From Modestobacter sp. VKM Ac-2977 (lineage in GTDB: Bacteria; Actinomycetota; Actinomycetes; Mycobacteriales; Geodermatophilaceae): a stretch of 64,000 nt of DNA. Every line of letters starts with the position of its first letter. The first letter of the stretch is position 1. The position numbers and the translations under genes are program-made. The stretch is taken from positions 571,238 to 635,237 of the forward strand of contig NZ_JAPVBQ010000001.1 in assembly GCF_026968045.1 (NCBI RefSeq), written 5' to 3'. Below the pieces are notes generated by a model. It did not search any database and was not told the DNA's origin. It saw only the letters and a list, made by a program, of their open reading frames with translations. Positions 14,817 through 18,111 of the stretch are shown here, piece by piece.

Positions 14817-15530
14817 TCAGGTGTGCAGCCCGCACTCGACCTTGTTCTTCCCGGCCCAGCGGCCGGCGCGCGGGTCCTCGCCCGGGGCGACCGGGCGGGT
14901 GCAGGGTGCACAGCCGATCGAGGCGTAGCCGATCTCCGACAGCGGGTTGACCGGCACCTGGTGCTCGGCGACGTAGCCGTCGACGTCGTCCTGGGTCCAG
15001 GCGGCCAACGGGTTGACCTTGACCATGCCGCGCTTGGCGTCCCAGTCGACGACCCGGGTGCCCGTCCGGGTCGCGGACTCGTCGCGGCGCACGCCCGATC
15101 CCCAGGCGGTGAAGCCGGCCAGCGCCTGCGCCAGCGGCTGCACCTTGCGCATGGAGCAGCAGAGGTCGGGGTCGCGTTCGTAGAGCTTCGGCCCGTGCTC
15201 GGCGTCCTGCTCGGCGACGGTCAGCGGCGGCTGGACGTTGTGCAGGGTGATCGGCAGGACGCCGGTGATCCAGTCGCGGGTGCCGATCGTCTCGGCGAAG
15301 TGGTAGCCGGTGTCGAGGAAGACGACGTTCACGCCGGGCACGGCGCGGCTGGCCAGGTGCGCCAGCAGCCCGTCTGCCATCGAGGAGGTGATGGCGAAGG
15401 AGTCGCCGAACGTCTCCCCGGCCCAGGTGAGCACGGCCAGCGCCTGCTCGACCGGGTCGGTGATGCCCTCGAAGCGTGCATCGGCCTCGGCCGCGAGCTC
15501 CGGCGTCGGTGTGGTGATCGCGATCGTCAT
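14817..15530 (-). CDS. cysH: adenylyl-sulfate (APS) reductase
   Basis: Reduces activated sulfate to sulfite. The 237-residue protein has the PP-loop-like ITSSMADGLL region, the DTGYHFAET segment, and RRDESATR. It also has the paired cysteines DLCCSMRKV plus GCAPCTRP, which ligate a [4Fe-4S] cluster, marking the APS-using rather than PAPS-using type. The catalytic C-terminal Cys is in VECGLH. The start ATG overlaps the stop of the zinc-ribbon gene (ATGA). Sulfite formed here is the substrate of the upstream SirA. Confidence 0.93.
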   Translation of the reverse strand: MTIAITTPTPELAAEADARFEGITDPVEQALAVLTWAGETFGDSFAITSSMADGLLAHLASRAVPGVNVVFLDTGYHFAETIGTRDWITGVLPITLHNVQPPLTVAEQDAEHGPKLYERDPDLCCSMRKVQPLAQALAGFTAWGSGVRRDESATRTGTRVVDWDAKRGMVKVNPLAAWTQDDVDGYVAEHQVPVNPLSEIGYASIGCAPCTRPVAPGEDPRAGRWAGKNKVECGLHT

Positions 15531-15721
15531 GGGTGCTGCACCCCCGTTCCGGTCAGCCGCAGGGTGAAGGTCCGCAGGCAGGCACCGCAGTGCCAGCCGG
15601 TTGCATCGTCACCGTGCGGGGTGAGGTCTTCTTCGCCGCAGTACGGACAGTGGAACGGTGGCAGCTGGCGCGTCCTTCCGGACGTGCTGTCTGTCACACC
15701 GCTCGGGTCCTGCGGGGTCAC
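15527..15721 (-). CDS. small zinc-ribbon protein between sirA and cysH
   Basis: A 64-residue protein with two CxxC knuckles, CPYC and CGAC, about 20 residues apart (FHCPYCGEEDLTPHG, then GWHCGACLRTFTLR). This is a treble-clef/zinc-ribbon layout likely to bind Zn. Its GTG overlaps the sirA stop (GTGA) and its stop overlaps the cysH start (ATGA), so all three are coupled. Small proteins of this kind sit between sulfite reductase and cysH in other actinobacteria; the role is not known. A part in Fe-S handling or regulation would be speculation. Confidence 0.85.
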   Translation of the reverse strand: MTPQDPSGVTDSTSGRTRQLPPFHCPYCGEEDLTPHGDDATGWHCGACLRTFTLRLTGTGVQHP

Positions 15722-17397
15722 ACCAGCCACTCGTCGTCGGCGCGCGCCACGTAGGCGGCGAACCGCTCGCCGGGCTCGCGGCGGTCGAGGTAGCCGCGGA
15801 GCACGCGCTCGCAGTAGTCCGCGGTCTCCTCCTTGGTGATCTTGTGACCACGGAACTTCCGGCCGAACGAGGCGTCGACGCCGAGGTGGCCGCCCAGGTG
15901 GACCTGGAAGCCCTCGACGCTCTCGCCCGCGGCGTTGCGGACGATCATGCCCTTGAAGCCGATGTCCGCCGTCTGGAACCGGGCGCAGCTGTTCGGGCAC
16001 CCGTTGACGTTGATCCCGATGGGCTCGTCGAACTCCGGCAGCCGGCGCTCCAGCTCGGCGTAGAGCTCCTGGGCGTGCTGCTTGGTCTCGACGATCGCGA
16101 GCTTGCAGAACTCCAGCCCGGTGCAGGCCATGGTGCCGCGGCGGAAGGCGCTGGGGCGCACCAGCAGGTCGTGCTCGGCCAGCGCGGCGACCAGGTCCTC
16201 GACCCGCTCGTCGGGGACGTCGAGGATGACCAGCTTCTGCTGCGTCGTGGTCCGGATCCGCCCGCCCTGGGTGCCGTACTCCTCGGCCAGGTCGGCGATC
16301 CGGGTGAGCAGCGTGCCGCTGATCCGGCCGGTGCGCAGCGCGAAGCCCAGCGCGTTGGTGCCGTCCTTCTGCTTGCTGACCCCGACGTGGTCGCGCTGGT
16401 CGTGCTCCGCCGGGGCGGGGGCCGGGCCGTCGGGCAGCTCGGCGTGCAGGTACTCGTCCTGCAGCACCTGGCGGAACTTCTCCGGGCCCCAGTCGGCCAT
16501 CAGGAACTTGATCCGGGCGTGGTTGCGGGACCGGCGGTAGCCGTAGTCGCGGAAGATCGAGGTGCACGCCGCCCAGACGTCGGTGACCTGGTCGGGGCGG
16601 ACGAAGACGCCGATCCGCTTGGCGAACATCGGGTTGGTCGACAGACCGCCGCCGACCCACAGGTCGTAGCCGGCCTCGCCGGCGGAGTTCACCACGCCGA
16701 CGAAGGAGACGTCGTCGATCTCGGGCTCGGTGCAGTGGTCGACGCAGCCGGACATCGACGTCTTCCACTTGCGCGGCAGGTTGCTGAACTGTGGGTCGCC
16801 GAGGTACTTCGCGACCGTCTCGGCCAGCACCTCGGAGGCGTCGATCACCTCGTCGGCGAGGATCCCGGCCATCGGGCAGTTCAGCATCACGCGCGGTACG
16901 TCGCCGCAGGCCTCCATCGTGCTCAGGCCGACCGACTCGAGTCGTCGCCAGATCTCCGGCACGTCCTCGATCCGGATCCAGTGGTACTGGACGTTCTGCC
17001 GGTCGGTGACGTCGGCGACGTCCCGGCCGAACTCGGTGCTGATCCCGCCGAGGACCCGGAGGGCCTCACTGGTCAGCGCCCCGCCGTCGATGCGGGCCCG
17101 CATCATGAAGTAGGAGTCCTCGAGCTCCTCGGCCTCCAGCACGGCGGTCTTGCCGCCAGGGATGCCCTGGGCCCGCTGGGTGTACAGGCCCATCCAGCGC
17201 ATCCGGCCGCGCAGGTCGCCGGGGTCGATGCCGTCGAAGCCGGTGTGCGCGTAGATGTCCAGGATCCGCTGGCGCACGTCCAACCCGTCGGAGTCCTTCT
17301 TCATCCGCTCGTTCGGGTTCAGCGGCTCGCGGTAGCCCAGCGCCCACTGTCCTTGTCCACGGACGGGGCGGTTGCTGCTGCGGGTGGGGGTCGACAC
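15718..17397 (-). CDS. sirA: ferredoxin-dependent assimilatory sulfite reductase
   Basis: Six-electron reduction of sulfite to sulfide with siroheme and a [4Fe-4S] cluster. At 559 aa it has the two-fold repeated ferrodoxin-like/catalytic domains. The cluster ligands are CTGLEFCKLAI and NGCPNSCARFQ in the C-terminal half; the N-terminal half has the parallel degenerate NCPMAG and SGCVDHC segments. Close to the mycobacterial enzyme once called NirA; nitrite is an alternative substrate but the cysH neighbour argues for sulfite. The GTG has GAGGAG ten bases upstream; an ATG nine codons earlier lacks such a site. A leader peptide and hairpin precede it. Confidence 0.94.
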   Translation of the reverse strand: MSTPTRSSNRPVRGQGQWALGYREPLNPNERMKKDSDGLDVRQRILDIYAHTGFDGIDPGDLRGRMRWMGLYTQRAQGIPGGKTAVLEAEELEDSYFMMRARIDGGALTSEALRVLGGISTEFGRDVADVTDRQNVQYHWIRIEDVPEIWRRLESVGLSTMEACGDVPRVMLNCPMAGILADEVIDASEVLAETVAKYLGDPQFSNLPRKWKTSMSGCVDHCTEPEIDDVSFVGVVNSAGEAGYDLWVGGGLSTNPMFAKRIGVFVRPDQVTDVWAACTSIFRDYGYRRSRNHARIKFLMADWGPEKFRQVLQDEYLHAELPDGPAPAPAEHDQRDHVGVSKQKDGTNALGFALRTGRISGTLLTRIADLAEEYGTQGGRIRTTTQQKLVILDVPDERVEDLVAALAEHDLLVRPSAFRRGTMACTGLEFCKLAIVETKQHAQELYAELERRLPEFDEPIGINVNGCPNSCARFQTADIGFKGMIVRNAAGESVEGFQVHLGGHLGVDASFGRKFRGHKITKEETADYCERVLRGYLDRREPGERFAAYVARADDEWLV

Positions 17398-17420
17398 GTC
17401 AGTCGTTCTCCTCTGCGCCG

Positions 17421-17435
17421 GCACGCCGAGCGTGC
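17421..17435 (-). promoter_or_regulatory. hairpin next to the sirA ribosome binding site
   Basis: GCACGC-TCG-GCGTGC on the coding strand is a perfect 6-bp stem with a 3-base loop, ending seven bases before the GAGGAG ribosome site of sirA. It lies in the 93-bp spacer after the leader peptide stop and is well placed to switch pairing when ribosomes stall on the leader. Confidence 0.4.
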
Positions 17436-17490
17436 GCGACGCGGCCGGGTGTGGGTGCAGCAGGGAGGCTGCGGGGGACCGGGGCCGTGG

Positions 17491-17577
17491 TCAGCGCGCG
17501 GCGCGACAGGCGGCGCTGGAGACCCGCGCCAGGTCGACGTGCAGGCGCTCCACGAGGAGGGCGCCGCAGTCCGTCAC
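17491..17577 (-). CDS. cysteine-containing leader peptide upstream of sirA (28 aa)
   Basis: A 28-codon frame opening with GTG, in the 230-bp gap between the Rrf2 gene and sirA. It contains the motif HVDLARVSSAACR, which I know from short actinobacterial proteins annotated as putative leader peptides (H-x-D-L-x-R-V-S-S-x-x-C). Cysteine codons occur at positions 4 and 24. A CACGAT -10-like hexamer ends six bases before the GTG and there is no Shine-Dalgarno, consistent with leaderless translation. Cysteine-responsive attenuation by short leaderless frames is reported before mycobacterial sulfur genes. I infer that ribosome stalling on its Cys codons adjusts sirA-cysH expression. Confidence 0.72.
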   Translation of the reverse strand: MTDCGALLVERLHVDLARVSSAACRAAR

Positions 17578-17628
17578 GGGTCGATCGTGCCACACCGAGC
17601 CGACTCGTGTTCCCGTCCGCGCGCGCGG

Positions 17629-18111
17629 TCAGTCCGCGGCCGGGACGCCGAAGGAACGCCACGCACTGTCCAGCTCGATCATCTCGGCCACGTGCGGCGG
17701 CATGGTGCCGGCGACGACGTCGGCCAGGGTCACGTTCTCCAGCACCCGGCGGTAGGACTCCCGCGCCGCCACCCACACCGAGGCGAGCGGCCCGGCGGCG
17801 CCCGGGTACTCGACGTCCTCGGGGCGCTGTCCGTGCACCTCGGCGAGGAAGCCCTGCTCCACCCGCATGACCCGGGCGACGGAGATCTCCGACGGCGGCA
17901 TCGCCAGCCGGTAGCCGCCCTCCCGGCCGCGCTGGCTGGTCACCAGCCGGGCGTGCTGCAGGTCGCCGAGGATGGCCTGCAGGAAGCGGGCCGGGATGCC
18001 CTGTGCCTGGGCGATCCGCTCCGAGGTCAGCGAGTCGGGTGCCACCGCGGCGAGTTCGACGGCGGCGCGGACTGCGTAGTCGACCCGGGCGGAGATGCGC
18101 ACGCCGGTCAT
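17629..18111 (-). CDS. Rrf2-family transcriptional regulator without Fe-S cysteines
   Basis: A 160-residue winged-helix regulator of the Rrf2 family (SARVDYAVRAAVELA start, recognition region IPARFLQAILGDLQ, wing RGREGGYRLA). The three cysteines that hold a [2Fe-2S] cluster in IscR, NsrR and RsrR are absent; there is no cysteine at all. That resembles CymR, the sulfur regulator that works through protein partners or metabolites. It lies directly upstream of the leader peptide and sirA on the same strand, which suggests it controls sulfur assimilation and perhaps itself. The ATG faces the divergent Nudix gene only a few bases away. Confidence 0.87.
   Translation of the reverse strand: MTGVRISARVDYAVRAAVELAAVAPDSLTSERIAQAQGIPARFLQAILGDLQHARLVTSQRGREGGYRLAMPPSEISVARVMRVEQGFLAEVHGQRPEDVEYPGAAGPLASVWVAARESYRRVLENVTLADVVAGTMPPHVAEMIELDSAWRSFGVPAAD

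Follow-up and report, generated by a model that had tools for sequence, protein, structure and literature searches.

The short frame that precedes sirA-cysH in Modestobacter sp. VKM Ac-2977 is probably the leader of a cysteine-responsive, ribosome-mediated attenuator, a reading to which we give, on comparative sequence evidence, a probability of roughly 0.78. In the mechanism we propose, transcription would begin at or beside the GTG start codon, as the position of the promoter suggests, and the leader would be translated first. A ribosome short of charged Cys-tRNA would then pause as the one conserved Cys codon, UGU, enters its A site, at a point that lies 10 residues past the V of a conserved VDL motif. 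The paused ribosome would alter the downstream mRNA and raise sirA-cysH output, either through release of the sirA ribosome site or through relief of termination. A sequence-only reading of this locus had described a translation-dependent attenuator that senses cysteine supply. This was retained in its main part, as it is favoured by a conserved and probably leaderless leader, one conserved Cys, a curated peptide family and sulfur genes downstream, whereas a role for two Cys codons (the first is kept in 15/70 leaders) and a 6-bp hairpin acting as the switch (exact in 4/44 sequences) had to be given up.

The window, by which we mean the whole analysed stretch of 64,000 nt, carries the leader at 17491..17577; this and all other features given with coordinates lie on its minus strand. 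The frame comprises 28 codons, from GTG at 17577 to TGA at 17491, and its translation is VTDCGALLVERLHVDLARVSSAACRAAR. The first Cys codon is TGC at codon 4 (17566..17568), the conserved one is TGT at codon 24 (17506..17508; VDL+10), and the HVDL codons occupy 17530..17541. The 28-codon GTG frame with two Cys codons before sirA was thus found as had been proposed, and so were a −10-like element and a 6-bp hairpin 56–70 nt past the stop. The sirA gene (15718..17397) encodes a ferredoxin-type nitrite/sulfite reductase (PF01077 and PF03460) and its product shows 99% identity to the Modestobacter caceresii homologue. The ORF caller placed its start at 17424; the ribosome site GAGGAG (17413-17408), into which GGCGCAG leads (together 17408..17419), indicates GTG 17397. 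Downstream lies cysH (14817..15530), coding for a PAPS/APS reductase (NF002537, 247.7 bits vs. a cut-off of 154), and this order on the same strand was seen in 77 of 80 relatives. Between the two genes, at about 15527-15721, there is a small CxxC...CxxC ORF, whose product is possibly a zinc-ribbon partner protein; a tblastn match to it was present on the sirA strand in 56/80 relatives. On the other side, 51 nt separate the leader start from the end of a gene for an Rrf2-family regulator (PF02082, 17629-18111). In 49/80 relatives a homologue, encoded on the strand of sirA, precedes that gene, often several hundred nt further off. As the Rrf2 family takes in CymR-type cysteine regulators, the adjoining gene makes it plausible that sulfur is also controlled at the level of transcription, as a second layer.

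The leader scored 33.2 bits against the NCBIfam model NF042934 ("putative leader peptide"), above the cut-off of 27, with a match spanning positions 2–19 of the 19 in the model, and 31.7 bits in a whole-genome search with the same model. We thus consider it a further member of the cysteine leaders of Actinomycetes. The remark that short frames of this kind are usually missed in annotation is no longer fully true, since a model now exists that this leader passes. For the comparison of upstream regions we used 80 relatives retrieved through their sirA, many of them close kin. An H[VILM]DL leader was detected at most 450 nt upstream of sirA in 69/80, and 9 of the other 11 had an HVDF version no further than about 300 nt upstream. 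The frame and its motif, expected to be kept in related genomes, were therefore found in 78/80, and only for L055 and L061 was no HVDL/HVDF-type leader identified upstream of sirA. The part HVDLxRVSSxxC is kept at the protein level: third bases at V, D, L, R and S vary while the amino acids stay constant, and one Ser alternates between TCC and AGC. With third bases free and amino acids kept, the peptide itself looks selected. The two Cys codons fared differently. The second was present in 70/70 sirA leaders; the first was TGC in just 15/70 and is therefore not a conserved part, so the view that both matter found no support.

An extended −10-like element of the leaderless type, TGTGGCACGAT (17584..17594), lies 6 nt before the GTG. 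Collapsing identical sequences left 51 distinct leaders from Geodermatophilaceae, and the element was counted in the 50 that start 12 codons before the H (L052, which starts elsewhere, was left out). TGTGnnAnnAT or a close variant was present upstream of the start codon in 50/50, with a gap of 6 nt in 28 and of 7 nt in 22. This pattern, composed after the sequences had been viewed, was matched in 4 of 10,000 shuffles. No full −35/−10 sigma-70 promoter was detected in a consensus scan of the window. The position of the −10 element is compatible with leaderless initiation from an extended −10. An SD-like 5-mer preceded the leader start in 6/50 cases; under a loose criterion (at least 4 bases matching the SD string between −20 and −4), 35/49 leaders matched. 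We regard the leader as probably leaderless, the loose SD matches making such a start less than certain.

The position and the spelling of the conserved Cys were the same in all sirA leaders: the residue stood 10 past the V of VDL in 70/70, and its codon was TGT in 70/70. The criteria for this set were H[VILM]DL and a Cys at any position, with no spacing prescribed. Inside the sirA genes, Cys codons were TGC 618 times and TGT 11 times. TGT was also found in all of the HVDF leaders (9/9). A pooled set from many families of Actinomycetes (180 leaders, 168 of them distinct) gave TGT in 164 and TGC in 4 at +10. Cys occupied VDL+10 in 168/168 pooled leaders, part of which had been chosen with that spacing: the loci from the genome search were taken by a regular expression requiring Cys at +10 (L117 and L129 gave no yield and were dropped). 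The spacing claim therefore rests on the sirA set and the model-picked loci. Another 20 leaders were read, for the most part with more than one from each genome and under one genus label; Cys stood at +10 in 18, always as TGT, and five other loci scanned beside them gave TGT in three and no match in two. The two that lack this Cys, L243 (TGA at +10) and L251 (GGG at +10), are similar leaders from two genomes with the genus label f31 g81; they carry a TGC Cys at +6 instead and are possibly decayed or re-tuned. Their lack of the +10 Cys counts against the attenuator.

At other positions the spelling was distributed otherwise. In the non-sirA leaders, Cys was TGC 53 times vs. TGT twice at +3, and TGC 30 times vs. 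TGT 12 times at +8; in the ORFs downstream of leaders the count was 240 TGC vs. 38 TGT. Fisher values obtained with these codon counts take no account of kinship among the sequences and are nominal. Within the Cys runs of the non-sirA set, TGT and TGC numbered 12 and 6 at +11, 11 and 7 at +12, 6 and 7 at +13, and 0 and 9 at +15. With TGT frequent at +11 and +12, the preference is not wholly limited to one codon. Over all leaders, T made up 98% of third bases at +10, 1% at +9 and 14% at +11. The four leaders with TGC at +10 (L177, L186, L188 and L189) all bear the family label f15, with Arg after the Cys in each; among the six f15 leaders read, the other two had TGT. Polycysteine leaders likewise have TGT at +10, and the shared sensor would then be one codon and not the number of Cys codons. 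These data suggest that a single UGU codon is the shared sensor, with VDLxR lying a constant number of residues further back in the tunnel. In bacteria a single tRNA serves the two Cys codons and pairs with UGU by wobble; an obvious guess for the preference is therefore that UGU is decoded more slowly. The UGU rule seems to be an undescribed feature of cysteine leaders: no report of it, or of the VDL-to-Cys geometry, was found in the literature searched (mostly without subscription papers), which does not prove absence.

Leaders of this kind also precede other genes. The Modestobacter genome has four, all with TGT at the conserved Cys. Besides that of sirA, one stands before a gene for a TauE-type exporter (leader, 30.8 bits against NF042934; TauE match, 119.9 bits, cut-off 32.6), one before a MetN-like ABC gene (26.8 bits, just below the cut-off of 27) and one before a rhodanese gene (23.2 bits, below the cut-off; rhodanese match, 75.9 bits, cut-off 22.2). 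The first 200 residues of the MetN-like product matched MetN best, at 260.3 bits, which is under the full-length cut-off of 499.7. A fifth match (E 0.376) lay inside a longer frame without leader shape and was not counted. At the class level, 94 of 101 first downstream ORFs were searched against Pfam (seven from near-identical leaders were omitted, and three leaders had no ORF); the ORFs were chosen mechanically and some may be in the wrong frame. Among the best 25 of 29 families, rhodanese was found 20 times, DUF4395 16, sulfite reductase half-domain 16, APS kinase 3, PAPS reductase 3, sulfatase 2, TauE 2, serine acetyltransferase 1 and cysteine dioxygenase 1, along with families of no obvious sulfur link such as SDF symporter (3) and POR (3). 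The same device before other sulfur genes in the genome and the class probably points to a shared cysteine signal. NF042934, which covers both single-Cys and polycysteine forms, matched above its cut-off in 174/200 genomes of the order and 147/246 of the class, and a phylum-wide draw gave matches in 12/198 genomes, 12/12 of them in the window's own order or class. We also observed divergent leader pairs on opposite strands, 57–237 nt apart (L190; genomes G173, G209, G243, G253 and G170), each of which may serve two back-to-back operons that share an intergenic region.

The RNA between leader and sirA bears on how a paused ribosome might act. Under plain codon-counting translational attenuation, as in mycobacterial polycysteine leaders, the peptide sequence and the Cys spelling would be incidental, and a stalled ribosome would sit on leader codons that, when free, contribute to masking the sirA ribosome site. 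In alignment A1 (44 of the 51 leaders; L047-L052 and L054 were left out for short, long or divergent gaps), RNAalifold returned only one pairing that could serve this end, between GCGCU at the leader end and GGCGC/AGCGC immediately 5′ of the sirA ribosome site, possible in 99.1% of alignment cells. The leader-end partner belongs to segment A, GCGCTG (17492..17497; A1 columns 12-17), which is nearly invariant. Judging from footprint size, a ribosome at UGU would cover GCGCT, and the available portions of PMC13236596 and PMC9031893 summarise, for the cysteine genes of M. smegmatis, attenuation at the level of translation. Against this, the pairing (A:E) showed no covariation in the 44 aligned sequences. 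When a ribosome at UGU was modelled by masking, the energy needed to open the sirA ribosome site fell by a mean of 0.2 kcal/mol (51 sequences); by more than 1 kcal/mol, 14/51 sequences were relieved and 13/51 worsened, with an equal effect at control positions. In this folding model, release of the site by a ribosome parked at UGU was thus rejected as a general rule. For the window alone, the opening energy went from 11.5 to 7.9 kcal/mol with the ribosome at UGU, and was 8.1 with the ribosome at the stop codon and 8.4 and 8.6 at two control codons. Codon counting also leaves the VDL-to-Cys spacing and the UGU rule unexplained, and we rate it as possible, if somewhat doubtful.

Other elements of the same region gave no common switch. 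The 6-bp hairpin GCACGC-TCG-GCGTGC (17421..17435) was exact in 4/44 aligned sequences (the window, L004, L005 and L009), with shorter forms in L006, L007 and L044; being limited to a few close relatives, it was rejected as a conserved switch, contrary to what had been proposed for it. A second hairpin after the stop, GCAGC-CTCCCT-GCTGC (17457..17472; A1 columns 41-44 and 49 with 60-64), had one pair with changes on both sides in 5 sequences. As for alternative pairings, C:E had one cell with a both-side change, and its covariation score was reached by 120/500 shuffles; A:E had no such cell. The leader-to-sirA RNA of the window was no more structured than shuffles (z 0.06), and no convincing Rfam element was found in 17000-18000 (two matches, E 0.8 and 3.9). 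The lack of a common RNA switch in the opening energies of 51 sequences, the window shuffles and the terminator scan counts against the attenuator. As a separate observation, leader codons CTCCTC (17554-17559) are the perfect complement of the sirA site GAGGAG (17408-17413), and the centroid fold shows the two paired; this complementarity is weaker in relatives with GGAAGAAG-type ribosome sites.

Rho-dependent termination in the C-rich gap, with leader translation setting the access of Rho, would offer another route. The first 60 nt past the leader stop contain on average 55% C and 25% G (51 sequences), which keeps Rho in consideration, and no intrinsic terminator was detected (0 in 17350-17720). 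The same proposal was made for mycobacterial cys leaders, where the accessible text of PMC1262725 terms it weak. C-richness is weak evidence in GC-rich DNA, however, and a ribosome halted at UGU would expose the gap and favour Rho under starvation, i.e., in the wrong direction. Rho control is in our judgement rather unlikely.

The UGU spelling could also be kept for a reason in the RNA, as a pairing or protein site, and not for decoding. When the window is folded locally from the Cys codon onwards, the GUC in UGUC is paired to GAC, formed by the stop UGA and the next base, and TGT is also common at +11 (12 vs. 6 TGC) and +12 (11 vs. 7 TGC). On the other hand, the flanking third bases are free (T in 1% at +9 and 14% at +11 vs. 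98% at +10), the stop is UGA in 148/168 leaders and the next base C in 93/168, and the codon after UGU is variable. Conservation of UGU through pairing with the stop codon is, given these variable partners and free third bases, not general, and an RNA reason of any kind appears unlikely. The constant spacing between conserved residues and the Cys codon would accord with an arrest peptide by which the ribosome responds to free cysteine, or to some other sulfur metabolite, instead of to tRNA charging. That the Cys codon is itself kept at the same place, and that Cys-dependent elongation is reported for related M. smegmatis leaders in the available part of PMC9031893, make this quite improbable. 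A chance frame, conceivable for a short ORF in GC-rich sequence with long open frames on both strands, is contradicted by the family score, the presence in 78/80 relatives and the amino-acid-level conservation, and can practically be dismissed.

For the ribosome-mediated attenuator preferred here, we tentatively propose, at somewhat short of an even chance, that the single codon senses cysteine with the aid of the nascent chain: the peptide would slow the ribosome, and one slow UGU would suffice where a run is used elsewhere. VDLxR would then lie about 6–10 residues up the exit tunnel when the wobble-read UGU occupies the A site. If this is true, a silent change of UGU to UGC would blunt or abolish cysteine regulation class-wide. 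The UGU rule also bears on an old question, namely what renders a regulatory codon starvation-sensitive when both codons share one tRNA, and reduces it to one silent-mutation experiment.

Compared with known systems, a classical transcription attenuator has an intrinsic terminator between leader and first gene, whereas the Modestobacter leader has none. In TnaC-type arrest peptides, the spacing between conserved residues and the stall codon is constant. The Modestobacter leader resembles them in this residue-to-codon distance, which was constant in 70/70 sirA leaders and 18/20 further leaders, its stall site being putative. In TnaC the nascent chain causes the arrest; here such arrest is putative.

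Among cysteine leaders, those predicted without terminators upstream of the cys operons of Mycobacterium and P. acnes, as far as the available text of PMC1262725 describes them, share with the present one a short ORF, Cys near the stop and the lack of a conserved terminator hairpin, and differ in having runs of Cys codons instead of a single UGU. The uORFC-8-2 motif before cysS in Rhodobacterales is also a candidate Cys-codon leader attenuator; according to the accessible part of PMC8632094, it differs in its tandem Cys codons, the dominance of UGC and a U-run consistent with an intrinsic terminator. For Streptomyces lividans, reannotation from RNA-seq yielded eight leader peptides, according to the portion available of PMC8079986, with none for cysteine among them, which counts against the attenuator. 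Cys-rich leaderless uORFs show ribosome occupancy in ribosome profiling, as stated in the text at hand of PMC4633059. Cysteine-responsive attenuation by the M. smegmatis polycysteine leaders (Canestrari 2020) is cited in the available parts of PMC13236596, PMC9094748 and PMC9031893.

At the protein level there is no difference between the Modestobacter leader and NF042934, a protein model that carries no codon information. Against NF042936 (Ms4527A family Cys-rich leader) it scored 23.2 bits, below the cut-off of 45. We take the M. smegmatis polycysteine sORFs of the 2020 Canestrari work to belong with this Ms4527A family; ribosomes stalled on them are said to block structures that hide the ribosome site. 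The Modestobacter leader shares with these leaderless sORFs the VDL core of polycysteine leaders, a putative leaderless-type start and a similar downstream operon, sirA-cysH being the cysteine/sulfur operon expected behind a polycysteine attenuator. They have a run of Cys codons, whereas the Modestobacter leader has none contiguous and one that is conserved, a difference from the tested leaders that counts against the attenuator. Our results extend the cysteine leaders from polycysteine forms to a widespread form of Actinomycetes with one conserved Cys codon.
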